Shown: positions 606-58,608 of the stretch, piece by piece
Layout: every line of letters starts with the position of its first letter
Numbering within the stretch: position 1 is the first letter of the stretch
NCBI RefSeq assembly: GCF_002222655.1
Contig: NZ_CP022423.1
Location: 2,604,001 to 2,668,000 of the forward strand
From: Vitreoscilla filiformis
GTDB taxonomy: Bacteria; Pseudomonadota; Gammaproteobacteria; Burkholderiales; Burkholderiaceae_C
Length of the DNA: 64,000 nt
Reading direction: 5' to 3'
The notes under the pieces: model-generated
Told to the model about the DNA's origin: nothing
What the model saw: only the letters and a program-made list of their open reading frames with translations
Database searches by the model: none
Translations under genes and position numbers: made by a program

Positions 606-1043
606 ATGAACAAAAATCGCGCCATATCGGGTTTTACGCTGGTTGAACTGGCCATCGTCTTGCTCATCATCGGGATCTTGTCCGCCATTGCGATGCCGAT
701 TTACCAAGATCATGCTTTGCAAGGTCGCATCGTGGACGCCACCAATGCGCTGTCCACCCTGCGCGTGCGCATGGAACAGCACTACCAAGACAACCGCAAG
801 TACATCGACACATCGTGGGCGGCCAGCCCGTGTTCATCTTCGGCTTCGGCGGGAGAATTCACCATTTCGTGCTCCTCGCTGTCGAGTGCCGCCTGGGTGG
901 GTCTGGCGCAAGGCACCGGCACCATGGCCGAATTCGCGTACAGCATCAACCAAGATGGTACCCGCGCCACCGTTTCTCTGCCGGCCAAGTGGGGCAGCAG
1001 CGCTTCGGGGTGCTGGATCACCAGCAAGGGAGGGAAATGCTAA
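606..1043 (+). CDS. pilE: Type IV pilin-like protein (PilE family minor pilin)
   Basis: This 145-residue prepilin has a short basic leader ending in Gly, followed by FTLVELAIVLLIIGILSAIA, the N-methylated hydrophobic helix cleaved by PilD, with Glu at mature position 5. Cysteines near the C-terminus (GCWITSKGGKC) fit the pilin disulfide loop. The start is supported by GAGGA a few bases upstream. The stop overlaps the next start (ATGCTAA), so translation is probably coupled. It is the first gene of a six-gene pilus operon, which points to a minor or priming pilin rather than the major subunit, though this is inference. It acts in the inner membrane and pilus fibre. Confidence 0.85.
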   Translation: MNKNRAISGFTLVELAIVLLIIGILSAIAMPIYQDHALQGRIVDATNALSTLRVRMEQHYQDNRKYIDTSWAASPCSSSASAGEFTISCSSLSSAAWVGLAQGTGTMAEFAYSINQDGTRATVSLPAKWGSSASGCWITSKGGKC

Positions 1044-1660
1044 AACACCCTTCGCACAGCTGCCACGGTCAGCGGCGCCAACACGGGTTCTCGTTGGTCG
1101 AACTCCTGATGGTGCTGCTCATGATCGGCGTACTGGCCTCGTTGGCCATTCCCCAGATCACCGAATGGGTGGCTGTGTCACGGTTGCGCGCAGCGGCTGA
1201 AGGAATCCAGCACGCAGTGCGCTTGGCCCAAGCGGAGGCATTGCGCCGCAGCCGCTCGACCGCGCTGGTGTTGACACAAGCCACCCCCGCCATTGGCGCC
1301 ACACCGGTGGCGAATGGCCAGCGGTGGTGGGTGCAGTCTTTGCAGCGCAGCGGTGAGGATGCCAGCACCCAGCAGATGCTGCAAAACGGCACGGATCCTG
1401 CGTCCATGAATGTCAGCGTGAGCGGCGTTGCCGCACTTTGCTTTAACGCCCTCGGTCAGCAAGTCACACTGGCAGCGGCGGCCAATGGACTGGGGGTTGA
1501 CTGCACAGCCCCCAGCGCGGCCACCCCTTACACCGAATACACCTTCACCCACACCCGCACGACCCGCCGCATGCGCGTCCAGGTGGGCAAAAGTGGTGAA
1601 GTGCGCATGTGCAACCCCGACAAAACCCTCAGTGACGAGGCTCCCGATGGCTGCCGCTGA
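1037..1660 (+). CDS. fimT: GspH/FimT family pseudopilin
   Basis: This is a 207-residue prepilin-like protein. After a basic leader it has the class III signal HGFSLVELLMVLLMIGVLAS with cleavage after Gly and Glu5. The rest is long and beta-rich with two C-terminal cysteines (RMCNP and DGC at the end), typical of FimT/GspH minor pilins. The chosen ATG overlaps the upstream pilin stop by seven bases. A longer frame upstream overlaps pilE and is not credible. FimT proteins help prime pilus assembly and in some species bind DNA for uptake. Only the family assignment is supported here. Confidence 0.85.
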   Translation: MLKHPSHSCHGQRRQHGFSLVELLMVLLMIGVLASLAIPQITEWVAVSRLRAAAEGIQHAVRLAQAEALRRSRSTALVLTQATPAIGATPVANGQRWWVQSLQRSGEDASTQQMLQNGTDPASMNVSVSGVAALCFNALGQQVTLAAAANGLGVDCTAPSAATPYTEYTFTHTRTTRRMRVQVGKSGEVRMCNPDKTLSDEAPDGCR

Positions 1661-2087
1661 CCCCTTGCCGTCCATCCCCCCCGCCCGTCCACGGCGACGC
1701 CAACAGGGGTTCACGCTGCTGGAAGTGCTGGTGGCCATGTTGCTCACGTTCGTCGGGCTCATGGGCATGTTGCAAATTCACGGGCGAGCGATCGGCGTGG
1801 CCATCGATGCCACCGAACGCAACCAAGCGGCCCTCATGGCCAGTGAGCTGGCTGCGCTAATGTGGGCCAATAACAGCGCCACGCTGGACTCCACGGTGCT
1901 GGACACCTGGAAAACCACACGCCTCCAAAACGAAGACATTTCGGGTTTGCGTGCTGCTGAACTCACCGTCAGTGACCCTGACGCCAGTGGCGTGGTGCTG
2001 ATCACCATCCGGTGGACATCGGTCACCCATCAAGGCCAAGCCAGCCGCTACGTCACCGAGATGGTGATTCCTCAGGAGCTGAGTTGA
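1647..2087 (+). CDS. pilV: Type IV pilus modification/minor pilin PilV
   Basis: This 146-residue protein has the prepilin signal QQGFTLLEVLVAMLLTFVGL after a Pro/Arg-rich leader. Its length and position between fimT and pilW match PilV. The start ATG at 1647 lies 14 bases inside fimT. A longer frame exists upstream but would cover most of fimT. PilV, PilW, PilX and PilE form the minor-pilin priming complex that initiates pilus assembly and carries PilY1. The stop overlaps the pilW start as TGATG. Confidence 0.85.
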   Translation: MAAADPLPSIPPARPRRRQQGFTLLEVLVAMLLTFVGLMGMLQIHGRAIGVAIDATERNQAALMASELAALMWANNSATLDSTVLDTWKTTRLQNEDISGLRAAELTVSDPDASGVVLITIRWTSVTHQGQASRYVTEMVIPQELS

Positions 2088-3265
2088 TGCAAGCGCCACC
2101 CCGTTCAGCACAGCGCGGCATGACGCTCGTTGAGCTTTTGGTCGCCATCGTCATTTCGCTGTTCATTTCGCTGTCGATTTTGGTCTTGTTGGCGGGCAGT
2201 GAAGGCCGTAACCGGGTGAGCAACGGCCTCAACACCATCGAACAAACCTCCAGCCTCAGTTCGTTCATGATGGATCAGTGGGTGCGCAGCGCAGGCAGTG
2301 GGCTCACCGTCGAGAGTGGTACGTTTTATGGCTGCACGCTCTACGCTAAAAACAGCACCGGGCAAACCTTGCCTCGCACGGCAGCGCTGCCCGATCCGTT
2401 TGCGCACATCAACCCCCATGAGGCTTACCAATTTCCGCTGGCCCCGGTGCTGATTTTTCCGGGCGTATCCTCGGGCACCAACACCCCGTCAGACACGCTG
2501 ATGGTGATGGGCGCTGCTGCCAACCATGCGGGGATTCCGTCATCCCTGACCAGCGCGCCCGGTGAAGATCATTTGAATGTCCACAATGCCTACGCTCTGA
2601 CGGCCTCCCAGTTGGTGCTGATTGCCGATATCAACAGCTCCAACTGCATGGTGACGCAAATCAGCTCGTCACATACCGACGCCACGGCCACGACGGTGCC
2701 ACTGAACGGCGATTTTCATGCCTCCCACATTGACACCCTCAATCTTGCCGATTTTTCCAAAGACAGCATTGCCCTGCCTCTTGGCATTCCCTCAACCGGC
2801 ACAGCGCCCCAAATGATGCTGCTGGGCGTTGGCAGCAACAAAACACTTTACAGTTATGATCTGCTGCAAATGTCTGGCGGTGACGATGCTTTACAGGCCC
2901 GTGCCAGCGGTATTTTGGAAATGCACGCCATTTATGGTGTGGACACCACCAACGACGGCAAACAAGATGGCTGGGTTTCCGCGTCAACGGGGGAATTTGC
3001 GACCACTGCCATTTTGGCGAACAGCCAACTCTCGACCAAACTGAAGAGAATCAAATCGGTTCGGGTGGCGCTGGTTTTGCAAATGGATGAAGTGAGTTCT
3101 TCACGCCAAGGCATGGTATCGGCGCCCAGCCTGACGATTTTCCCGGATCTGGCTGCGCAAGGTCTGTCTATCACCCGCACGCTGACCGACGATGAGCGCC
3201 GCTATCGCTACCGTGTTGTGGACACCACGCTGGTGCTGCGCAACACCCACATGCTGACGCCATGA
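2087..3265 (+). CDS. pilW: Type IV pilus assembly protein PilW
   Basis: This 392-residue minor pilin has a short leader followed by RGMTLVELLVAIVISLFISL, a class III signal with Glu5. The large C-terminal region is Ser/Thr/Asn-rich, as usual for PilW. The start codon shares one base with the pilV stop (TGATG), and the gene ends in an ATGA overlap with pilX, so the operon is translationally coupled throughout. PilW belongs to the priming complex at the pilus tip. The family call is confident; the tip role is known for the family and not shown here. Confidence 0.85.
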   Translation: MQAPPRSAQRGMTLVELLVAIVISLFISLSILVLLAGSEGRNRVSNGLNTIEQTSSLSSFMMDQWVRSAGSGLTVESGTFYGCTLYAKNSTGQTLPRTAALPDPFAHINPHEAYQFPLAPVLIFPGVSSGTNTPSDTLMVMGAAANHAGIPSSLTSAPGEDHLNVHNAYALTASQLVLIADINSSNCMVTQISSSHTDATATTVPLNGDFHASHIDTLNLADFSKDSIALPLGIPSTGTAPQMMLLGVGSNKTLYSYDLLQMSGGDDALQARASGILEMHAIYGVDTTNDGKQDGWVSASTGEFATTAILANSQLSTKLKRIKSVRVALVLQMDEVSSSRQGMVSAPSLTIFPDLAAQGLSITRTLTDDERRYRYRVVDTTLVLRNTHMLTP

Positions 3266-3891
3266 TTGTTGCCATGCCCGCTGCCGCCACCGATCGTCGT
3301 CGCATTCGGCGTCATCAGCAAGGTGCCACTTTGCTGATTGTGCTCGCCACGTTGTTGATTTTGTTAGCCGGTGGCGTGGCCCTGCTTCGCTCGTCGGATG
3401 CCAACTTGTTGCTGACTGGCCAATTGGCCACCCGGCGCGACATGCAAAACCAAGGTGAGCGCGGGATTGCTTGGGCTGTTGCCCAGTTTAATTCGGGCGC
3501 CCTGAGTTCCAAAGTATCGCGAGAATCCAGCCAAAAGGCCATTAATTATTCAGCCGTGCAACTGGCCAGTAATTCTCAAGGGATTCCCAGTATTTTGCTG
3601 AGTGATACCGCTTACGCCGCTGCGGGCATGACGGGCAGTGACATTGAAAGCACCAACACCAGTGTGATCATCCGAACGGTCATCGATCGATTGTGTACCG
3701 AAGAAGGGGCCTCGGCGACGGACACTTGCACCATGATCAGCAAGTTTTGCGGCGGGCACTCGGCTGGGCAAGATTCTTCGGTCGGGGGTGGTGAAGTTTT
3801 GAAGTGTGAAATGACTGTTTATCGGATCACTGTTCGCGTCGATGGCCCCCGATCTGCGCAAGCTTTCTATCAATCCATTTTTGCGATGTGA
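3262..3891 (+). CDS. pilX: Type IV pilus assembly protein PilX
   Basis: This 209-residue protein has a basic leader and a hydrophobic helix beginning QQGATLLIVLATLLILLAGG. Unlike the other pilins here it has Leu rather than Glu near mature position 5, as is common in PilX and GspK-like minor pilins, which cap the fibre. Four cysteines lie in the C-terminal half. It overlaps pilW by four bases (ATGA) and is followed after 24 bases by pilY1, which has its own ribosome site (AGCAGGAG). This order is the standard PilX-PilY1 arrangement. Confidence 0.85.
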   Translation: MIVAMPAAATDRRRIRRHQQGATLLIVLATLLILLAGGVALLRSSDANLLLTGQLATRRDMQNQGERGIAWAVAQFNSGALSSKVSRESSQKAINYSAVQLASNSQGIPSILLSDTAYAAAGMTGSDIESTNTSVIIRTVIDRLCTEEGASATDTCTMISKFCGGHSAGQDSSVGGGEVLKCEMTVYRITVRVDGPRSAQAFYQSIFAM

Positions 3892-3915
3892 CCGCTCTTC
3901 AGAGCAGGAGCCGAA

Positions 3916-6900
3916 ATGTCTCACCCCTTGAAGTCTTTGGTACAACTGACGCTGGCGGCCTGGTTGGCCGTTGGCACGTCGGCCACACTAGCGGCTGATG
4001 TTAATCTCGCTGATTCGCCATTGTTCACGACGGTGGCGGTTCCGGGCAATTTGGCATTTGCGCTTTCGGTGGAATGGCCTACGGCCAACACCACGGCTTA
4101 TTCGAGCGATCCGAAAAAAACTTACTCGGCGGCCAACACTTATGTGGGGTATTTTGACCCGGCCAAGTGTTATCGCTACAGCTACAACAGCACGACGCCA
4201 AAGAACAGTCAGTTCATCCCGCACAGCACAACTTCTTCGCAAACTTGCACCAGCTCGTCGAGTGTGCCGCTTTGGAGCGGCAACTATTTGAACTGGGCGA
4301 GTATGCAAACCATGGATGTGTTCCGGTGGGCTTTGACGGGGGGTTACCGTTCCACGGACACAGTTGGCAATACCATTCTAACGAAAATTATTGCCAAAAC
4401 TCCGAACTCGACTTCGATCAACGTCACCGCACCAGATAAAACCATCACGACCAACATCACGGGAGCAACGCCTTTTAATTGGACGACTCTTACCACGGCC
4501 ATACAAAATCAAGGGATTTCCATGCTCGTCACGAGCACGGCCACCCAAGTCAGTACCGTGAAGATGAGCCCTTCCACCGGGTGTAAAGTTGGCTACACTT
4601 GCATCGATACGGCGAATTACACCCCGGAAGACTACACGGGGCAAAACTCTTACGTCACATCGGATAACAGCGCTTACGCTAATCCAGCAAAAATTTATCA
4701 GATTTATATCAACGTCAGGGTTTGTGACCCTAGTGTTTCCATCGAAAGCAACTGCACCGATTACACCAGCGCAGGTTCTGGCAATTACAAACCTGAAGGG
4801 TTGATGCAGAACTATGCAGAACGCATTCGTTTCGCTACTTTCGGCTACCTGAACGACACGGACAATCCAGACCGCCGAGATGGTGGCGTGCTTCGCTCCC
4901 CGATGAAATTCATTGGCCCGAAAAAAGCCAATGCCGATGGAACCACCTCCGCCAACTCCACCCCAGAATGGGATAGCACAACGGGAATTGTATTAACTGA
5001 TCCCGAGAGCAGTTTGTCCGCACAGTTTAATGGATGGACCACCTGGAGCGGATCAATCAATTACATCAATCACTTCGGACAAAGCCTCCACCGCTCCACT
5101 GAAGACGAATATCGCTATCGTCGATCAGATCCTGTTAGTGAGCTTTATTATGCTGTCACTCGCTACTACCGAAATGTCGGCAACGTGGCGTCCTACAGCG
5201 AGCTGCCGTCCAACGATTTCAGCAAGATATTGATTCTTGACGAATTCCCGATCGTCACAGACTGGAGCACAACAGCCTGGCAAAGCGGCGCCCCCGCCAG
5301 CTCGGCCGACCCCATCATTTATGCCTGCCAGAAGAACTTCATTTTGGGCATCGGTGACGTTTACGCGAACAATGACGCCAATTTACCCGGCGCACTGGAC
5401 ACACTAAGAGGGAAAGAAAACACCATGCCCACCGAAGTCAGCAGCGATGCGGCTTATGTGGACGTTGTCAAATCTACAAAAATGGTGGCCCAGCTTGAAG
5501 ATTTAGCCGACACCCTGGCCACTGAATTTGCACCCAAATACTGCCCTCCCCCCAAAAAGGGCCAGACCATCTCCGCCACCTGTAGAAATCCGGGCACCAA
5601 CAATACCTTTTACATTGCAGGACTGGCCTACGACGTTCACACAACCGACATTCGCAGCGATATTCCCGACACCCAAACCATCAGCACCTACTGGCTAGAC
5701 GTGAAAGAAAACGATGTCTACGTCAGCAAGAATCCTTACTGGATGGCAGCCAAGTATGGTGGTTTCACCGTACCGTCAGGCTTTGAGCCCTACAGCGCCG
5801 GCAATGGCCCGAGCACTCTCAACCTGACCGACTGGTATAACACCACCGATACCCTTCTTTGGACTGACCCGGTCACTTTGAACGAATACTCGGATCAGCG
5901 CCCAGACAATTATTTTGCCGCTGACCAGGGCGACGTGATGGTTGCCGCCCTGAAATCTGCCTTCGCCAAAATCGCCTCCGAATTGGGCGCCGCGACCACC
6001 ACCGCTTTCTCCTCTGCCACACGCAAGAGCACGACCACCGACAACGCCAACTACGCCGCCAGCTACGACCCCACCACGTGGACCGGCAAAGTGGTGGGCT
6101 CTAGCATCAGCTACGACGCCAATTTCACCCCCACCCTGACCCAAATTTGGGACGCCCGCAGCCTGCTAGAAACCACCACACCCGAAGAGCGAAAAATCAT
6201 CACCTGCTGCGAAGTGACCACCGATGACGACAACGGCTCCCCCACGCAAGCCGGCTTGGCTTTCACCGTCAATGATTTGAGCAACCGGCCATTGATTTCC
6301 CGCACCTACGTGGCGTCTTTTAGTGACGTGCCAGGCGTTACATCACAATCCCGGTCTAATTTCATCGCTTACTTGCGCGGCGACCGGGATCAGGAATTGA
6401 ACAAGGGCGGCGTCTATCGCAATCGAACCTACTTGCTGGGGGACATTGTGAACTCTAAGCCCACTGCGGTTGCATCGCCGTCCCGCCCTTATTACGACAG
6501 TTATAACCCCGGTTACGGTGCCTTCAAGCGCAAGTGGTCCACCCGCAGCACCGTGGTTTACATCGGCGCGAACGATGGCATGATGCACGCCTTCGATGGC
6601 TCGTTGAGCTCTACCACTCGCGGCATGGAATTGTTTGCCTACATTCCAAGCTTTGTTTACGGCAGCTCCTCAACGGCCTCGACGACTGGCTTGGCATCCC
6701 TGGGCAACCCCAGCTTCACGCACCATTATTTCGTCGATGCTACGCCGCTGTCTTTCGACATTGACCTGTCCAATACCTACAACAGCGGCACGTCCACCCC
6801 AGATTGGCGCACCGTCATCATCGGTGGCTTGGGCAAAGGCGGAAAAGGCTATTACGCCATTGATGTCACCGACCCCAGCAGTTGGACGTCTGAATCCGTG

Positions 6901-7929
6901 TTATCCAGCAAAGTGCTGTGGGAGTTTACTCATGAGCACATGGGTTATTCATATGGTGACGCCCACGTCGTCAAAACAGAAAAATATGGCTGGGTGGTGT
7001 TGCTGACATCAGGCTATAACAACGACGATGGTAAGGGTTATCTGTTTGTGGTCAACCCCAAAACAGGCGCCCTGCTGGAAGCGATTGCCACCCCGGATTC
7101 GGCCACCACGCCCGTCAATTTCGGACAAATGCGCTCGTTCATCCCGAACGTGGCCGATTACACCGCCGACGCGGTTTATATCGGTGACCTGCAAGGCAAT
7201 CTGTGGCGATTTGACTTGACCGGTACCCCCAATGCCTACCCCGCCCCTGTTTTGCTGGCCCAACTGCGCAGCTCCTCCGGTGACGTGCTGCCCATCACCG
7301 CATCGCCCATGATTGGTGTGGATCCGAGTACTCTCAAGCGGTATGTCATGGTCGGCACGGGCCGCTTGTTGCATAGCAGTGACATCGACAGCAACAACAA
7401 CCAAACCTTCTTTGCGATGGTGGATGGAACCTACGAATCCGGGCGCTTCTACACTGCCGAAACCATCCCCGATAATTATTCGCTGCCCATCACCCGCAGC
7501 CAGCTCACCGAAGTCACCGATCTGACGCAGGGGCTGAACACAGTGAATGCAACCCCCTCCGCCATGGGTTGGTATTACGACGTGGCTGGCGGCATCACCA
7601 CGGACGGCGACGTTTACAACGGCGTCGTCGCCTTCGGGGTGAACAACACCGATGACAGCTCGGCCTGTAACCCATCCGGCACCAGCGCTTATTACGCAGT
7701 GCGTTTTGCTTCGGGTGCCTCGGTGTTGGTCGGCAGCGATGGAACCACCATCGTGGATTCTGTTTTGAACGAGAGCGGCATCGTGACTGAAATCAGCGTG
7801 CAGAGCGTCAACGGCACCATTTTGGTCACGGCGGGGGACAGCTCAGGCAAAGTCACCACACTGCGCATCGGCACCGTGGCCAACGCCACGCAACGGCTCA
7901 ACTGGCGCGAGATTTCAACGATTGACTGA
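3916..7929 (+). CDS. pilY1: Type IV pilus tip adhesin/assembly factor PilY1
   Basis: This 1337-residue exported protein has a Sec signal peptide (residues 1 to about 27, ending in TLAA). A long Ser/Thr/Asn-rich N-terminal region is followed by a C-terminal beta-propeller. Propeller repeats are visible as YIGANDGMMHAFDG near residue 882 and YIGDLQGNLWRFDL near residue 1088. An acidic, Asn-rich loop (DIDSNNN, near 1156) is a candidate calcium site of the kind that controls PilY1-dependent extension and retraction. I saw no clear MIDAS motif in the N-terminal part, so a von Willebrand A domain is not claimed. PilY1 sits at the pilus tip with the minor pilins and acts in adhesion, twitching and surface sensing. 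It is the sixth gene of the operon. Confidence 0.93.
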   Translation: MSHPLKSLVQLTLAAWLAVGTSATLAADVNLADSPLFTTVAVPGNLAFALSVEWPTANTTAYSSDPKKTYSAANTYVGYFDPAKCYRYSYNSTTPKNSQFIPHSTTSSQTCTSSSSVPLWSGNYLNWASMQTMDVFRWALTGGYRSTDTVGNTILTKIIAKTPNSTSINVTAPDKTITTNITGATPFNWTTLTTAIQNQGISMLVTSTATQVSTVKMSPSTGCKVGYTCIDTANYTPEDYTGQNSYVTSDNSAYANPAKIYQIYINVRVCDPSVSIESNCTDYTSAGSGNYKPEGLMQNYAERIRFATFGYLNDTDNPDRRDGGVLRSPMKFIGPKKANADGTTSANSTPEWDSTTGIVLTDPESSLSAQFNGWTTWSGSINYINHFGQSLHRSTEDEYRYRRSDPVSELYYAVTRYYRNVGNVASYSELPSNDFSKILILDEFPIVTDWSTTAWQSGAPASSADPIIYACQKNFILGIGDVYANNDANLPGALDTLRGKENTMPTEVSSDAAYVDVVKSTKMVAQLEDLADTLATEFAPKYCPPPKKGQTISATCRNPGTNNTFYIAGLAYDVHTTDIRSDIPDTQTISTYWLDVKENDVYVSKNPYWMAAKYGGFTVPSGFEPYSAGNGPSTLNLTDWYNTTDTLLWTDPVTLNEYSDQRPDNYFAADQGDVMVAALKSAFAKIASELGAATTTAFSSATRKSTTTDNANYAASYDPTTWTGKVVGSSISYDANFTPTLTQIWDARSLLETTTPEERKIITCCEVTTDDDNGSPTQAGLAFTVNDLSNRPLISRTYVASFSDVPGVTSQSRSNFIAYLRGDRDQELNKGGVYRNRTYLLGDIVNSKPTAVASPSRPYYDSYNPGYGAFKRKWSTRSTVVYIGANDGMMHAFDGSLSSTTRGMELFAYIPSFVYGSSSTASTTGLASLGNPSFTHHYFVDATPLSFDIDLSNTYNSGTSTPDWRTVIIGGLGKGGKGYYAIDVTDPSSWTSESVLSSKVLWEFTHEHMGYSYGDAHVVKTEKYGWVVLLTSGYNNDDGKGYLFVVNPKTGALLEAIATPDSATTPVNFGQMRSFIPNVADYTADAVYIGDLQGNLWRFDLTGTPNAYPAPVLLAQLRSSSGDVLPITASPMIGVDPSTLKRYVMVGTGRLLHSSDIDSNNNQTFFAMVDGTYESGRFYTAETIPDNYSLPITRSQLTEVTDLTQGLNTVNATPSAMGWYYDVAGGITTDGDVYNGVVAFGVNNTDDSSACNPSGTSAYYAVRFASGASVLVGSDGTTIVDSVLNESGIVTEISVQSVNGTILVTAGDSSGKVTTLRIGTVANATQRLNWREISTID

Positions 7930-41234: not shown

Positions 41235-41310
41235 GCGGGAATAGCTCAGTTGGTAGAGCGCAACCTTGCCAAGGTTGAGGTCGCGAGTTCGAGCCTCGTT
41301 TCCCGCTCCA
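41235..41310 (+). tRNA. tRNA-Gly (GCC), copy 1
   Basis: This 76-base tRNA has acceptor arms GCGGGAA and TTCCCGC, anticodon GCC in CTTGCCAAG, T-loop GTTCGAGCC and an encoded CCA. It is the first gene of a five-tRNA operon. Confidence 0.98.
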
Positions 41311-41356
41311 AAGTCAGCGCGTTGGCACGCGGTGATGGCGAGGCAAAACCAAGTCT

Positions 41357-41430
41357 GGCGCGATAGCAAAGCGGTTATGCAACGGATTGCAAATCCGTCT
41401 AGTCCAGTTCGACTCTGGATCGCGCCTCCA
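41357..41430 (+). tRNA. tRNA-Cys (GCA)
   Basis: This 74-base tRNA has acceptor arms GGCGCGA and TCGCGCC, anticodon GCA in ATTGCAAAT, T-loop GTTCGACTC and an encoded CCA. It lies between the first and second tRNA-Gly copies. Confidence 0.98.
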
Positions 41431-41443
41431 AAGCACACTGTGT

Positions 41444-41519
41444 GCGGGAATAGCTCAGTTGGTAGAGCGCAACCTTGCCAAGGTTGAGGTCGCGAGTTCG
41501 AGCCTCGTTTCCCGCTCCA
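41444..41519 (+). tRNA. tRNA-Gly (GCC), copy 2
   Basis: This copy is identical over all 76 bases to copy 1. It begins 13 bases after tRNA-Cys. Confidence 0.98.
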
Positions 41520-41533
41520 AGTTTGTGCCCTCT

Positions 41534-41609
41534 GCGGGAATAGCTCAGTTGGTAGAGCGCAACCTTGCCAAGGTTGAGGTCGCGAGTTCGAGCCTCGTTT
41601 CCCGCTCCA
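41534..41609 (+). tRNA. tRNA-Gly (GCC), copy 3
   Basis: This copy is identical to copies 1 and 2. It starts exactly 90 bases after copy 2, with a 14-base spacer. Confidence 0.98.
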
Positions 41610-41623
41610 GTTTGGTACCCCCT

Positions 41624-41699
41624 GCGGGAATAGCTCAGTTGGTAGAGCGCAACCTTGCCAAGGTTGAGGTCGCGAGTTCGAGCCTCGTTTCCCGCTCCA
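41624..41699 (+). tRNA. tRNA-Gly (GCC), copy 4
   Basis: This copy is identical to the other three. It starts exactly 90 bases after copy 3, with a similar 14-base spacer, and is followed directly by the operon terminator. Confidence 0.98.
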
Positions 41700-53842: not shown

Positions 53843-53868
53843 GAGGCCGATTTCATCGGCCTCTTTTT
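53843..53868 (+). terminator. Terminator after the DUF3149 gene
   Basis: GAGGCCGA and TCGGCCTC form a perfect 8-bp stem with a TTTCA loop, followed by five T. It separates this gene from the arabinose operon. Confidence 0.92.
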
Positions 53869-53928: not shown

Positions 53929-54876
53929 GTGTCTCCGGTGTGCTTCGTTTCGCCTCGGAGACGGCCATTGCCATACACCCGCACCCCTCCTCCTCCCTCA
54001 CCGAATTTCGCTAGAACCGCCCTGCAACTGATGCGCCCCCATCAGTGGGTGAAGAACAGCTTCGTGCTTTTCGGTGTCCTCTTCGCGGGACGGTGGGGGG
54101 ATTGGGCATTGCTCGGGCAAGCCGGATTGACCTTTTTGGCTTTTTGCGCCGTCGCCAGCGCGATTTACATCGGCAATGACTTGGTCGACGTCCACGCCGA
54201 CCGTGTTCACCCTCACAAACGCCATCGCCCTCTCGCCAGCGGGCTCGTTTCCACGGCACAGGCCCGCATGCTGGGGGGGCTTTTGGTGGGTCTGGGGTGC
54301 GGACTGGCTGCCACAGTTTCTTGGCCCGTCTTGGCGCTGGCGATGGGCTACATTGCCATCAACGCGGCCTACAGCCTGCGACTGAAACACGCTCCCATCT
54401 TGGACGTGTTTTGCATCTGTGCTGGCTTCATGCTGCGCATCTTGGCCGGCACGGTCGGACTGGGCATTCACCCCTCCAGCTGGTTGCTGCTGTGTGGGTT
54501 GATGTTCACTCTTTTCTTGGGTTTTGCCAAACGCCGCGCTGAATTGATGCTGATGCAGCAGCATCCCAAGCGCACCACCCGCCGTGTTTTGCACGCCTAT
54601 AAACCCGAAATGCTGGAGCAATACCTGTCCATTTCGGCCACGTGTACCGTGTTGAGTTATGCCCTGTACACCGTTAGCCCCGACACCATTGAGCTGCATG
54701 GCACCGATCGCTTGATCTACACGGTGCCACTCATCATCTACGGAATCTTCCGATACCTGCTCCTGCTGCACAGCCACGGAGCTGGCCAAGATACTGCCCG
54801 CGATCTTCTGCGCGATCGCCAGTTACTGCTCTGTGTGCTGGCGTGGCTGGCTTTGACCGTGGGACTGATCAGGTGA
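53929..54876 (+). CDS. UbiA-family polyprenyl-phosphate phosphoribosyltransferase (DPPR synthase-like)
   Basis: This protein of about 315 residues is an integral membrane prenyltransferase with about eight to nine helices. The first motif MRPHQWVKN is followed by N83-D84-x2-D87-x3-D91, with HPHKRHRPLASG directly after it. That combination, rather than the quinone-pathway version, matches the mycobacterial enzyme Rv3806c. Rv3806c transfers 5-phosphoribose from PRPP to decaprenyl phosphate. The start is uncertain: GTG 53929, TTG 53968 or ATG 54031. It opens a five-gene operon with DprE1- and DprE2-like genes and would make the first intermediate, polyprenyl-phosphoryl-5-phosphoribose. Confidence 0.85.
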   Translation: MSPVCFVSPRRRPLPYTRTPPPPSPNFARTALQLMRPHQWVKNSFVLFGVLFAGRWGDWALLGQAGLTFLAFCAVASAIYIGNDLVDVHADRVHPHKRHRPLASGLVSTAQARMLGGLLVGLGCGLAATVSWPVLALAMGYIAINAAYSLRLKHAPILDVFCICAGFMLRILAGTVGLGIHPSSWLLLCGLMFTLFLGFAKRRAELMLMQQHPKRTTRRVLHAYKPEMLEQYLSISATCTVLSYALYTVSPDTIELHGTDRLIYTVPLIIYGIFRYLLLLHSHGAGQDTARDLLRDRQLLLCVLAWLALTVGLIR

Positions 54877-55877
54877 CCCCCCCCCTCCCCCCTCCTTTTT
54901 CGCCCGAAAACGTGCTCATGTCCCGCCGCACCTGGGTGGGACTGCTGGTGACTTTGGTTGTCAGTGCGCTGGGTTACCTGCTGTTTTCTGTCTGGAATGG
55001 CTGGGCCGCTGTTTGGGCGGCTGTTCAGCGCGTCCACATGCTGGGATTCGCTGTTTTGCTCGGCTTATCCTTGGTGAACTATGGGCTGCGCTTTGTCCGC
55101 TGGCAGGCTTATCTGCACGAGATGGGGCACACCGTACCCTGGAAGCCCTGTGGCCTGATTTACGTGGGTGGCTATGCCCTCACCACCACCCCCGGGAAAG
55201 TGGGAGAGGCTGTCCGCTCTGTGTTCTTGCGCGCATGGAACGTCCCGGTTTCGCACAGCCTAGCGGCTTTCGCCAGCGAACGACTGGCTGACTTGGTCGG
55301 CATCATGGCCCTGGCCTGCTTAGGCGCTTGGAGTTTCACCACGCACCGTTCACTGATTGGGTTCGGGTGGGTGTTGATTTTGCTGTTGTGGGTCGGGCTG
55401 GTGCATGGCCACCGCGTGATACACAAACTCTCCCCCTCCGACACGTTGCCGCACAACGCCTGGTCGGGGCTCCTCCAACGGGTCACGCACGCACTGTCCG
55501 CGACTCGGCAGTGCCATCGCCCCGGCTTGGTGGCGTGGGTTTGGCCCATGACCGCCCTGGCCTGGATGGCTGAAGCTTGGGCCCTCCACCTCTTGCTCGG
55601 CTGGTTGGACATTCACTGTCACTGGCTGTTTTCCTTTTTTGTTTATGCCGTGGCCATGATGGCGGGCGCTTTCAGTTTCTTACCGGGTGGATTGGGGGGC
55701 ACCGAAGCCGTCATGGTGGGCTTGCTGCTCTGGCATGGTGCGGATCCACCGGTGGCAGTGGCCGCGACCATCGTTGTGCGGCTGACCACGTTATGGTTCG
55801 CTGTTTTGCTGGGCTTGGTCGCTCTGTCGATCTTATGGCGCCAGCACCAACTGCCTCGCACTGGCGTGTCCCCATGA
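54873..55877 (+). CDS. Lysylphosphatidylglycerol synthase TM-like (UPF0104) membrane protein
   Basis: This protein of about 319-334 residues has roughly eight hydrophobic helices. Family features are RFVRWQAYL after the second helix, TTTPGKVGEAVRS, the SERLADLVG segment and the C-terminal FSFLPGGLGGTEAVMVGLLL. Members range from the membrane half of MprF flippases to proteins in glycolipid clusters. The start is GTG 54873, overlapping the UbiA stop, or ATG 54918, which begins directly before the first helix. In this operon it could flip the lipid-linked pentose or transfer it. Both are inference. Confidence 0.8.
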   Translation: MTPPLPPPFSPENVLMSRRTWVGLLVTLVVSALGYLLFSVWNGWAAVWAAVQRVHMLGFAVLLGLSLVNYGLRFVRWQAYLHEMGHTVPWKPCGLIYVGGYALTTTPGKVGEAVRSVFLRAWNVPVSHSLAAFASERLADLVGIMALACLGAWSFTTHRSLIGFGWVLILLLWVGLVHGHRVIHKLSPSDTLPHNAWSGLLQRVTHALSATRQCHRPGLVAWVWPMTALAWMAEAWALHLLLGWLDIHCHWLFSFFVYAVAMMAGAFSFLPGGLGGTEAVMVGLLLWHGADPPVAVAATIVVRLTTLWFAVLLGLVALSILWRQHQLPRTGVSP

Positions 55878-57169
55878 CACAACCCACCCAAGCCTGGGGC
55901 CGGATGCCCACCCCCCCCGCAAAATACGAACGGCCCCTCACCGACCGTCACACCAACCTGCCACGACCGAGCGATGCACAAAACACCCTGCTCGCTCATG
56001 GATGGGGCCGTAGTTATGGCGATGTGGCACTCAATCCGGGCCACACCCTGTTGCACACTCGCCATCTGGATCGTTTCATGGCTTTCGATCCTGCAACCGG
56101 TGTGCTGCGCGCTGAAGCGGGCGTGTCGCTGGATGCCATCCTGCGATTGGTGATTCCACAAGGCTGGTTTTTACCTGTGACCCCGGGAACACGCTTTGTC
56201 ACCCTGGGCGGGGCTGTGGCCAACGATGTTCACGGTAAAAACCACCATGTGATGGGCTCGTTCGGAGATCACGTGCGCGCCTTGGAACTGTTGCGCTCGG
56301 ACGGTTCCCGCCAGCAGTGCAGCGCCACGCAGCATCCTGACTGGTTTCGTGCCACGGTCGGTGGGCTGGGTCTCACGGGCTTGATCACTTGGGTTGAAAT
56401 TGGGCTGCGTCGCATCGCGCAACCCGATGTCCAAGCCATCAACCGGCGTTTCGCCTCGATCGACGACTATTGGGCCTTGGATGCCCATTGGATGCCTCGG
56501 TGTGAATACGCTGTCGCTTGGGTCGATTGCCTGCGTGGTGGCCGTGGCATTTACACGGCGGGCCTGCACGCTGGCGCTCAGGCGCAGTGGCGTCACCCGC
56601 CTGCTCCGCAGCGTCAGTGGCCGATGACACCTCCGCTGTCGCTGGTCAACCGCGCCTCCGTTTGGGGGTTCAACTGGCTGTACTACCACCGTCCGCTGCC
56701 ACCTCAAACCCTCATGCCCTGGCCGGCCTTTTTTTACCCGTTGGACGGTATTGGCCAATGGAATCGCATGTACGGCCCGCGTGGCTTCATTCAGTACCAA
56801 TGCGTGCTCCCCCCTGCGACCATGCGTGACGCCAGCCGTGAACTGCTGCGCCTGATTGGTTCACGCGGACAAGGCTCTTTCCTCGCCGTGTTCAAAACCT
56901 TTGGCAACCGGACTGCCCCTGGCATGCTGTCATTCCCCCGGCCAGGTTCAACCTTGGCGCTGGACTTTCCCTTCCAGGGCGAGGCCACCCTCCGTTTGTG
57001 CCACGAACTCGATGCCGTGGTGCGCGAGGCACAGGGAGCGCTGTATCCCGCCAAGGATGCACGCATGCCCGGGTCGATGTTCCGTGCAGGCTACCCCGAT
57101 TGGGAAGCCTTCAGCACCTATGTCGATCCGGCGTTTTCGTCCGGTTTTTGGCGGCGTGTTCAGACGTGA
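55874..57169 (+). CDS. DprE1-like decaprenylphosphoryl-ribose oxidase
   Basis: This 431-residue FAD-binding oxidase is close in pattern to mycobacterial DprE1. It has HGWGRSYGDVALN, PVTPGTRFVTLGGAVAND, then VHGKNHHVMGSFGDHV (His pair 124-125) and LYPAKDAR with Tyr391 and Lys394 at the active site. It would oxidise the 2'-hydroxyl of polyprenyl-phosphoryl-ribose to the keto form. At the position of the benzothiazinone-reactive cysteine (C387 in M. tuberculosis) it has Ala362 (TLALDFP). The ATG overlaps the upstream stop (ATGA). Confidence 0.88.
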   Translation: MTQPTQAWGRMPTPPAKYERPLTDRHTNLPRPSDAQNTLLAHGWGRSYGDVALNPGHTLLHTRHLDRFMAFDPATGVLRAEAGVSLDAILRLVIPQGWFLPVTPGTRFVTLGGAVANDVHGKNHHVMGSFGDHVRALELLRSDGSRQQCSATQHPDWFRATVGGLGLTGLITWVEIGLRRIAQPDVQAINRRFASIDDYWALDAHWMPRCEYAVAWVDCLRGGRGIYTAGLHAGAQAQWRHPPAPQRQWPMTPPLSLVNRASVWGFNWLYYHRPLPPQTLMPWPAFFYPLDGIGQWNRMYGPRGFIQYQCVLPPATMRDASRELLRLIGSRGQGSFLAVFKTFGNRTAPGMLSFPRPGSTLALDFPFQGEATLRLCHELDAVVREAQGALYPAKDARMPGSMFRAGYPDWEAFSTYVDPAFSSGFWRRVQT

Positions 57170-57224
57170 CAATGCCCCCCTCCCCCGCTCCTCACCACCC
57201 AGCCTCTCACCGAATATTGACGCG

Positions 57225-57977
57225 ATGAAACACAAGTTTCTTCTGTTGGGCGCCACATCCGCCATCGCCCACGCCACTGCTCGGTTGTGGGTTCAACGCG
57301 GTGCGGCACTGGTGTTGGTCGGACGCGATGCCGTCAAACTTCAGCAGGCGCTGCAAGACCTGCAAGTGCGTGCGGGGCCACAAGCGCATCTGCTGCACGC
57401 CATCCAAGCCGATTTGGAAGATGTCAGCCGCCACGCCGCTTTGATCGACGAAGCCTGGCAACGCTTAGGGGGGTTGGATGGCGTTCTCATCGCCCATGGC
57501 ACCTTGCCAGACCAAACGGCCTGCGATGCCGATGTGTCTCTGGCCTTGGCGCATTTGCATACCAATGGGGTGTCGGTGGTGTCGCTGTGCGCCCACATCG
57601 CGCAGCGCATGAAGACGGCCCAAGCGGGCACGCTGGCGGTCATTTCATCCGTTGCAGGCGATCGGGGGCGACAGTCCAATTACCTCTATGGTGCAGCCAA
57701 AGGCCTGGTGAGTTTGTATCTCCAAGGACTTCGCAATCGCCTGTACCCGCACGGGGTGCATGTGCTGACCATCAAACCTGGGTTTGTGGACACCCCCATG
57801 ACAGCAGGCATCGGCCCGAAAGGGGCACTCTGGGCCACGCCGGAGCGTGTTGCCGCCGACATCGTCCGCGCCATGGATCGCAACACCGACGTGCTATACA
57901 CCCCCGGTTTCTGGCGTTTCATCATGATGGTGGTGAGGCACATTCCGGAACGGGTGTTCAAGCGTCTGCGTCTCTGA
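57225..57977 (+). CDS. DprE2-like short-chain dehydrogenase
   Basis: This 250-residue short-chain dehydrogenase has an N-terminal LLGATSAIAHATARL cofactor loop, ISSVAGDRG with the catalytic Ser, and the Y155-x3-K159 dyad in YLYGAAKGLVS. The SVAG and following NYLYGAAK closely resemble DprE2, which reduces the keto intermediate to polyprenyl-phosphoryl-arabinose with NADH or NADPH. It lies 55 bp after the DprE1-like gene and completes the epimerisation pair. The C-terminus (PGFWRFIMMVVRHIPE) may associate with the membrane. Confidence 0.85.
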   Translation: MKHKFLLLGATSAIAHATARLWVQRGAALVLVGRDAVKLQQALQDLQVRAGPQAHLLHAIQADLEDVSRHAALIDEAWQRLGGLDGVLIAHGTLPDQTACDADVSLALAHLHTNGVSVVSLCAHIAQRMKTAQAGTLAVISSVAGDRGRQSNYLYGAAKGLVSLYLQGLRNRLYPHGVHVLTIKPGFVDTPMTAGIGPKGALWATPERVAADIVRAMDRNTDVLYTPGFWRFIMMVVRHIPERVFKRLRL

Positions 57978-57981
57978 CGCA

Positions 57982-58608
57982 ATGGGGCTGGAGATGCGCT
58001 TGGCTTTGTTCGATTTCGACGGCACCCTCACGACCCGTGACAGCCTCATGCCTTTCCTACGCCATGTCGTGGGAACGCCGGCGTTCATCGCCGGGCTGGG
58101 TGCCATGAGCCCGGTCTTAGCGGCTTACGCCTTCGGCTGGATGCGCAATGACCGGGCCAAAGAACGGGTGTTGCACTGGTTCTTGGGTGGTCGTCGTCTC
58201 GCGGAGGTGGAAGACGCTGGGCAAGCGTTTGCCCAGACACGCTTACCCCGACTCCTGCGTCCGAGCATGATGGCCACGCTTCACCAGCATCAAGCCAGGG
58301 GCGACACATGCGTGCTGGTCAGTGCCTCACTGGGCTGCTATCTGCGCCCGTGGGCCCAGGCCCATCGGTTCGATGCCGTGCTGTGCTCCGAGCTGGTCGC
58401 CACACCAGGGCGATTGGGCGAGCCCCAGCGCATCAACGGACAGCTCGCCGGTGCCAACTGCTTCGGGCCCGAAAAAGTGGCTCGCATCCAAGATTGGTTG
58501 GCGGGGCGCACGCCCACGCACGTCAGTGCGTACGGGGACAGTCGAGGTGATCGCGAAATGTTGGCACTGGCCGACAGCCCTCACTATCGTCCTTGGCGTC
58601 ACCCCTGA
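57982..58608 (+). CDS. HAD-IB family phosphatase
   Basis: This 208-residue haloacid dehalogenase-type phosphatase has motif I LFDFDGTLTTRDS (nucleophile Asp), motif II SAS in CVLVSASLG, and motif IV AYGDSRGDREML. It starts four bases after the DprE2-like stop. In mycobacteria the phosphate of the phosphoribose intermediate is removed by a different fold, a PAP2 protein. In this operon the HAD enzyme is the obvious candidate for that step, by position only. Its end overlaps the convergent ABC transporter gene by ten bases. Confidence 0.85.
   Translation: MGLEMRLALFDFDGTLTTRDSLMPFLRHVVGTPAFIAGLGAMSPVLAAYAFGWMRNDRAKERVLHWFLGGRRLAEVEDAGQAFAQTRLPRLLRPSMMATLHQHQARGDTCVLVSASLGCYLRPWAQAHRFDAVLCSELVATPGRLGEPQRINGQLAGANCFGPEKVARIQDWLAGRTPTHVSAYGDSRGDREMLALADSPHYRPWRHP

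Follow-up and report, generated by a model that had tools for sequence, protein, structure and literature searches.

Introduction

Chemistry of the decaprenyl-phosphoryl-D-arabinose (DPA) type is already on record for Gram-negative bacteria (PMC11127046, PMC12369383, PMC11841053), as are arabinosylated pseudomonad pili (PMC12369383) and O-antigen pentofuranoses (PMC11127046); in Pseudomonas paraeruginosa, the pilin carries D-arabinofuranose (D-Araf), with biosynthesis genes lying apart from the pilA-tfpW locus (PMC12369383). Here, a stretch of 64,000 nucleotides from Vitreoscilla filiformis (order Burkholderiales, family Burkholderiaceae_C; NZ_CP022423.1, positions 2,604,001 to 2,668,000 of the forward strand; hereafter the window), which belongs to a 3.79 Mb genome in three contigs, was analysed for a cassette of five genes. 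On balance, the cassette appears to be an operon for the synthesis and export of a single activated sugar lipid, polyprenyl-P-D-arabinofuranose, for a transferase encoded elsewhere, and its second gene is a probable flippase of that lipid.

Results

A five-gene cassette for a probable lipid-linked arabinose

The features of the locus are as follows.

53843..53868 (+): terminator-like hairpin with a T-run, closing the upstream unit (sequence inspected by eye)
53929..54876 (+): U, UbiA-family polyprenyl-phosphate phosphoribosyltransferase resembling decaprenyl-phosphate phosphoribosyltransferase (DPPRS), by NCBIfam NF008977 and the solved relatives 8j8j/8j8k
54843..55877 (+): F, MprF-type membrane protein of family PF03706 (UPF0104) that probably flips the arabinose lipid, by Pfam, predicted fold and conserved place
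55874..57169 (+): E1, DprE1-like flavin adenine dinucleotide (FAD) oxidase for C2 oxidation of polyprenyl-P-ribose, by a profile compared with DprE1 chains
57225..57977 (+): E2, DprE2-like short-chain dehydrogenase/reductase (SDR), by solved SDR matches and NCBIfam
57982..58608 (+): HAD-IB (haloacid dehalogenase) phosphatase, probable 5-phosphatase of polyprenyl-P-ribose-5-P, by Pfam HAD and locus comparison

All five open reading frames (ORFs) lie at the place and on the strand given by an earlier, sequence-only reading of this DNA, and their families are confirmed by Pfam and NCBIfam. Six other loci have the genes in the same order on one strand, U-F-E1-E2-HAD (Chromohalobacter moromii, L041; a Thioalkalivibrio metagenome-assembled genome (MAG), L055; Halomonas, L058; an Alcaligenaceae MAG, L059; and two Pseudomonas, L066 and L076), and a seventh locus holds the same five genes plus GtrA and one extra gene; because the same order recurs in distant genera, the arrangement is not a product of chance.

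Gene content, homology, motifs, conserved association and the predicted fold of F suggest the following route. U would carry out the polyprenyl-phosphate phosphoribosyltransferase step and the HAD enzyme would remove the 5-phosphate, after which E1 would oxidise C2 of the ribose and E2 would reduce it with inverted configuration, yielding polyprenyl-P-D-arabinofuranose on the cytoplasmic face. The lipid would be moved to the periplasmic face by F, and a glycosyltransferase of the GT-C type encoded elsewhere would transfer the arabinose, either onto a glycan of the envelope or onto a protein, for example pilin.

The sequence-only reading had recognised an enzyme set for polyprenyl-phosphoryl-D-arabinose, and this holds up: among solved structures, DPPRS is closest to U, DprE1 to E1 and DprE2 to E2. 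U scores 267.6 bits against NF008977 (cut-off 234), passes two NCBIfam cut-offs for decaprenyl-phosphate phosphoribosyltransferase and matches DPPRS 8j8j/8j8k best among solved structures (131 and 100 bits; next 25). Aligned with the mycobacterial enzyme (8j8j) over 290 residues, it keeps the motifs N-D-x-x-D-x-x-x-D and R-x-x-E, whose residues were tested in the work reported in PMC11127046. A profile of 11 E1 relatives matches DprE1 chains at 354-325 bits, with the next family at 51, and DprE2 is the best of 296 solved SDR matches of E2 (97 bits; next 61), which also passes NCBIfam PRK07102 (316 bits; cut-off 267). The HAD gene scores 129 bits against Pfam HAD and has one weak, uncharacterised solved relative. 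Judged by these homologies, U, HAD, E1 and E2 probably make polyprenyl-phosphoryl-D-arabinofuranose.

Some covalent inhibitors depend on the cysteine of the mycobacterial motif NICVDFP. In 11 of 11 aligned E1 proteins this position is alanine, so cysteine-dependent covalent inhibitors should not be expected to act in that way on E1.

Apparent exchange of the phosphatase

Gene neighbourhoods were compared in 115 loci, comprising the window, 15 relatives from the family, 79 of the best 80 matching stretches (no fewer than 590 matched in all) and half (20) of the 40 genomes of the order that carry E1; one locus (L101) was left out as being the same as L022, and the set leans towards the window's own E1. 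Fisher values given below are uncorrected for kinship.

U is fused to a phosphatase in 72 loci and unfused in 19, the remaining 24 having no U within 5 kb. A free HAD gene accompanies 10 of the 19 unfused U genes, none of the 72 fused ones and 1 of the 24 loci that lack U nearby, so that free and fused HAD are mutually exclusive (10/19 versus 0/72, p 1e-8). In two loci (L024, L030) a divergent PAP2 protein (PF02681) directly follows an unfused U, and the mycobacterial phosphatase of the pathway is described as unrelated to HAD (PMC11127046). Since fused HAD, free HAD and a PAP2-like protein are all found there, and mycobacteria also use a non-HAD phosphatase, one phosphatase slot appears to be filled by at least three kinds of phosphatase. 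Two genomes (G081, G056) carry F-E1-E2 with no U nearby and encode U elsewhere.

An MprF-type candidate flippase

The sequence-only reading had named F correctly as a UPF0104 membrane protein, an identity borne out by Pfam PF03706 (155 bits; cut-off 33.4), and had assigned it no role. By sequence, F has no match in the PDB; its predicted structure (predicted local distance difference test, pLDDT, 88.2) matches MprF chains alone at E <= 0.001, with a TM-score of about 0.6 by query length. In 41 of the 115 loci a PF03706 gene is no more than 5 kb away from E1, and in 37 of the 115 one lies upstream, on the same strand and within 2.7 kb. For members of COG0392, lipid flipping in glycosylation pathways has been predicted (PMC5898192), GpgF is presented as a parallel, likewise unproven flippase case (PMC12713373), and MprF is described as a promiscuous scramblase (PMC11980842). 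A literature search at the level of search results, with the supplement of PMC11127046 outside its scope, found no publication tying PF03706 to polyprenyl-P-arabinose. From its modelled fold and its conserved place, F is the probable flippase of the arabinose-lipid donor.

The distribution of F can be set against that of GtrA in the 79 of 115 loci that have 5 kb on both sides: 23 have F only, 31 GtrA only, 6 both and 19 neither, so that F with GtrA is rarer than expected (p 4.5e-4, Fisher). A tree built quickly from 79 E1 proteins places the window with two loci of its own family (L020, L027; support 99, starred) within a group of 15 rows (support 94) that includes Halomonas, Chromohalobacter, Pseudomonas and Rhodocyclus-like loci; 13 of these have F and none has GtrA within 5 kb, as is also true of the window. 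A separate group of 15 rows (support again 99 and starred) shows the opposite pattern, 12 with GtrA and 1 with F.

Several results weigh against the route proposed above. E1 reaches 318 bits against NCBIfam DprE1, under the cut-off of 500, and E2 reaches 179 bits against DprE2, under the cut-off of 250; the free HAD has no clear similarity by BLAST to the fused HAD domain; and in this genome the cassette has no transferase linked to it. With regard to F, the co-occurrence of F and GtrA in 6 of the 79 loci and the absence of both in 19 are joined by a tree-corrected test in which the exclusion is non-significant (median p 0.25; independent pairs went the same way in 0 cases and the opposite way in about 3 of 9), and two GtrA proteins encoded elsewhere in the genome mean that F is not the sole possible flippase. 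A strict replacement of GtrA by F was rejected on the locus counts and the tree-corrected test; F tends to replace GtrA, a tendency that is non-significant after tree correction. As to the possibility, raised by the sequence-only reading, that the homologues fall outside the mycobacterial-type clades, a comparison with solved structures, in which DPPRS, DprE1 and DprE2 come out closest, speaks against it, though E1 and E2 stay under the equivalog cut-offs.

The same GtrA proteins, one of which lies beside pilA, allow the donor to be an arabinose lipid with F scrambling another lipid or aiding carrier recycling, while a GtrA elsewhere flips the donor. The promiscuity of MprF fits such a role, as do the loci with both genes, in some of which F directly adjoins GtrA (L228, L230, L236). 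This is nevertheless unlikely, given that cassettes of distant genera have F as a built-in part and that the E1 clade of the window has no GtrA nearby in any of its 15 rows.

Candidate transferases and acceptors

The sequence-only reading pointed to the rest of the genome for a GT-C arabinosyltransferase, and this was partly answered. Neither the five cassette genes nor their flanks contain a GT-C (GT136) gene, a profile search of the genome gave no PF13231 match, and no Emb/Aft-type enzyme turned up, no search having been aimed at TfpW, EmbC or AftA. What was found is a family of membrane proteins of 611-649 residues (hereafter the 613 family) with four full-length copies. One copy, a protein of 613 residues with multiple transmembrane segments, directly follows pilA, the sole PF00114 pilin gene of the genome, and is in turn followed by GtrA, a PRK07208-type FAD enzyme and a PglL-like protein; the other three full-length copies lie away from pilA, and two more copies are shortened. 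The shortened copies are at L146:8994-9635 and L147:8736-10073, the former beside genes read as phage-like.

The 613 family is a candidate GT-C family on size, number of transmembrane segments and context. It has no Pfam match above cut-off, its profile matches neither of two other GT-C-like sets, its structure prediction is poor (pLDDT 44), and no relatives were found in viral contigs or plasmids.

Two acceptors can be weighed from these copies. The cassette may serve mainly a pilin arabinosylation of the TfpW kind, with the protein downstream of pilA as the arabinosyltransferase. In Candidatus Accumulibacter aalborgensis a 613-family homologue abuts fused U, E1 and E2; in Pseudomonas duriflava (L066) and G028 (L026) pilA is followed by a membrane protein of 627-634 residues, of one family in both, and then by the DPA genes; and in Lysobacter enzymogenes (L051) three pilins lie about 7-10 kb from the cassette, which has two large membrane proteins beside it. 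A major pilin is thus near the cassette in at least 3 of the 115 loci, a lower bound in that only 57 of them reach about 8-9 kb on both sides; the chance estimate (p 0.015) assumes a value for the pilin density. The biosynthesis genes lie apart from pilA, as they do in P. paraeruginosa (PMC12369383). This route is nonetheless judged somewhat unlikely. The same operon of pilA, 613-family gene, GtrA, FAD enzyme and PglL-like gene occurs without E1 or a DPPRS-like U in G165, of the same genus, and in G030. In the order, at least 12 of 399 genomes have the 613 family and at least 40 have E1 (lower bounds, with at most 3 and 4 candidates scored per genome, respectively), with 2 genomes sharing both (p 0.34), and only the features named above mark the family as GT-C. 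The pilA-linked protein as an established arabinosyltransferase was accordingly rejected as unproven, on the operons of G165 and G030 and the missing co-occurrence in the order.

Two side observations concern the same genes. In Ca. Accumulibacter (L075:1091-3040, +) the 613-family ORF closes with a stretch like the last part of F, which looks as though a deletion had fused both genes (by eye). Five pilin modules without DPA genes (L127, L148, L158, L211, L217) consist of one or more pilins, a 613-family protein, GtrA and a PRK07208-type FAD enzyme, with a PglL match next in 3 of the 5.

Alternatively, the three stand-alone full-length paralogues away from pilA could pass the arabinose to a glycan. 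Four full-length copies and two fragments are present here; of the 15 other genomes of the genus, 1 has a single copy, and of all 16 this one alone has E1. Both E1-bearing genomes of the set (G000, G415) contain copies with no GtrA or FAD gene next to them, as do 2 of 12 E1-negative ones (own profiles; p 0.066). The genomes behind that value are few, and GtrA or FAD genes may have been missed in L216 and L218, which leaves this acceptor, too, on the doubtful side.

Other cassettes are accompanied by other membrane proteins. The closest relative in the order by E1 (G445, L222) has one of 538 residues between U and F, and the GT-C-like protein of this operon has no match in the genome of the window or in 6 of 7 other genomes searched; in Thioalkalivibrio L055 a PF13231 protein follows HAD. 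Because different membrane proteins accompany the cassettes of P. duriflava and G028, L. enzymogenes, G445 and Thioalkalivibrio, the donor genes seem to form a stable kit, with the transferase as the variable part.

Spread, base composition and gene boundaries

Relatives of E1 occur in 16 of 150 genomes of the family (that of the window included), in 1 of 16 of the genus, and, as noted, in at least 40 of 399 of the order; named genomes contain at least 590 matching stretches, of which the best 80 come from Xanthomonas, Dyella, Lysobacter, Halomonas, Pseudomonas, Corallococcus, Chloroflexi MAGs and others. On plasmids, 40 records carry E1, at least 23 of them from Rhizobium, Sinorhizobium, Agrobacterium or Neorhizobium. 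The surprise voiced by the sequence-only reading at finding this pathway in a Gram-negative bacterium is therefore not supported: E1 is patchy but frequent, and the chemistry is published (PMC11127046, PMC12369383).

A horizontal gain of the cassette is plausible; the patchiness suggests it and base composition supports it weakly. The GC content of the cassette is 61.6%, as compared with a window mean of 62.9% and 67.2 and 66.2% in the 5-kb flanks, and the GC content at third codon positions (GC3) of E1 is the third lowest of the 48 window genes. Composition is weak evidence because the cassette is close to the window mean, though under its flanks.

A recent acquisition that is inactive or repurposed, with no arabinose lipid made, would agree with E1 being in a single genome of the genus, with the sub-cut-off scores of E1 and E2 and with the broken E1 frame of the relative G056. 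It is highly improbable, as all five frames are intact and their motifs kept, and the cassette is conserved in distant genera. In G056 (L027:9738-11020, +), E1 is split into two frames, reflecting a broken gene or a sequencing error.

The description of the genes as mostly overlapping proved too strong, the only sure overlap being that of F (PF03706) and DprE1 (4 nt, ATGA). U and F overlap by 34 nt if F starts at GTG 54843 and are separated by 41 nt if it starts at ATG 54918, the latter (319 aa) being the likely start; U may itself start anywhere from GTG 53929 to ATG 54031. E1 and E2 are spaced by 55 nt, E2 and HAD by 4 nt. Downstream of the cassette, an ATP-binding cassette (ABC) exporter is encoded on the opposite strand.

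Elsewhere in the window, an operon of the minor-pilin type at 606-7929 (+) encodes a ComP/N-methyl pilin (606-1043), an N-methyl protein (1428-2087), PilW (2120-3265) and PilY1 (4069-7929), and three of its genes have the lowest, second and fourth lowest GC3 of the 48. At 41235-41699 (+) lies a tRNA cluster, Gly-Cys-Gly-Gly-Gly, in which all four Gly anticodons are gcc.

Discussion

What may be new here is an MprF-type flippase fixed in one branch of the cassette, together with the exchange of phosphatase and flippase modules. The compactness of the operon, with one structurally recognisable candidate in F, makes the flipping step testable by removing a single gene, and the spread of DprE1 relatives across the order suggests looking for D-arabinose in many Gram-negative envelopes and pili. 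As a tentative and more speculative extension, MprF-type PF03706 proteins could be flippases specialised for polyprenyl-phosphate pentofuranoses, adding one more unrelated solution to the GtrA/SMR (small multidrug resistance) and EmrE types; the Gram-negative pathway would be a kit with a freely exchanged phosphatase slot (fused HAD, free HAD or PAP2-like), flippase slot (F or GtrA) and transferase, whose donor would here feed a small paralogous transferase family aimed at several surface targets.

The mycobacterial DPA pathway (DPPRS, Rv3807c, DprE1, DprE2, Rv3789), familiar chiefly from the cell wall of the tuberculosis agent, shares homologous U, E1 and E2 with the cassette, but HAD takes the place of the unrelated Rv3807c, and F that of the SMR-type Rv3789. 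With the MprF flippase domain and COG0392 (GpgF, YbhN), F has the Pfam family and predicted fold in common and differs in being a stand-alone gene in a polyprenyl-P-pentose operon. As in P. paraeruginosa, with its D-Araf genes PSPA7_6245-6251 and TfpW (PMC12369383), the biosynthesis cluster is apart from the pilA locus, the link to pilin here being a candidate one. The three-component pentofuranose systems of Citrobacter youngae O1/O2, as set out by Kelly et al. 2024 (PMC11127046), appear to share with this operon a UbiA-family polyprenyl-phosphate phosphoribosyltransferase (PPPRS) fed by phosphoribosyl pyrophosphate (PRPP), a HAD phosphatase, on-lipid epimerisation and a separate membrane carrier, and where Araf is the sugar they use DprE1/E2 homologues, as here. 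In that prototype HAD is fused to PPPRS, the carrier is ORF14 of the multidrug and toxic compound extrusion (MATE)/EmrE type, and the GT-C lies in the cluster (PMC11127046), whereas the V. filiformis operon has a free HAD without clear BLAST similarity to a fused domain, a PF03706 protein and no GT-C in its cluster.

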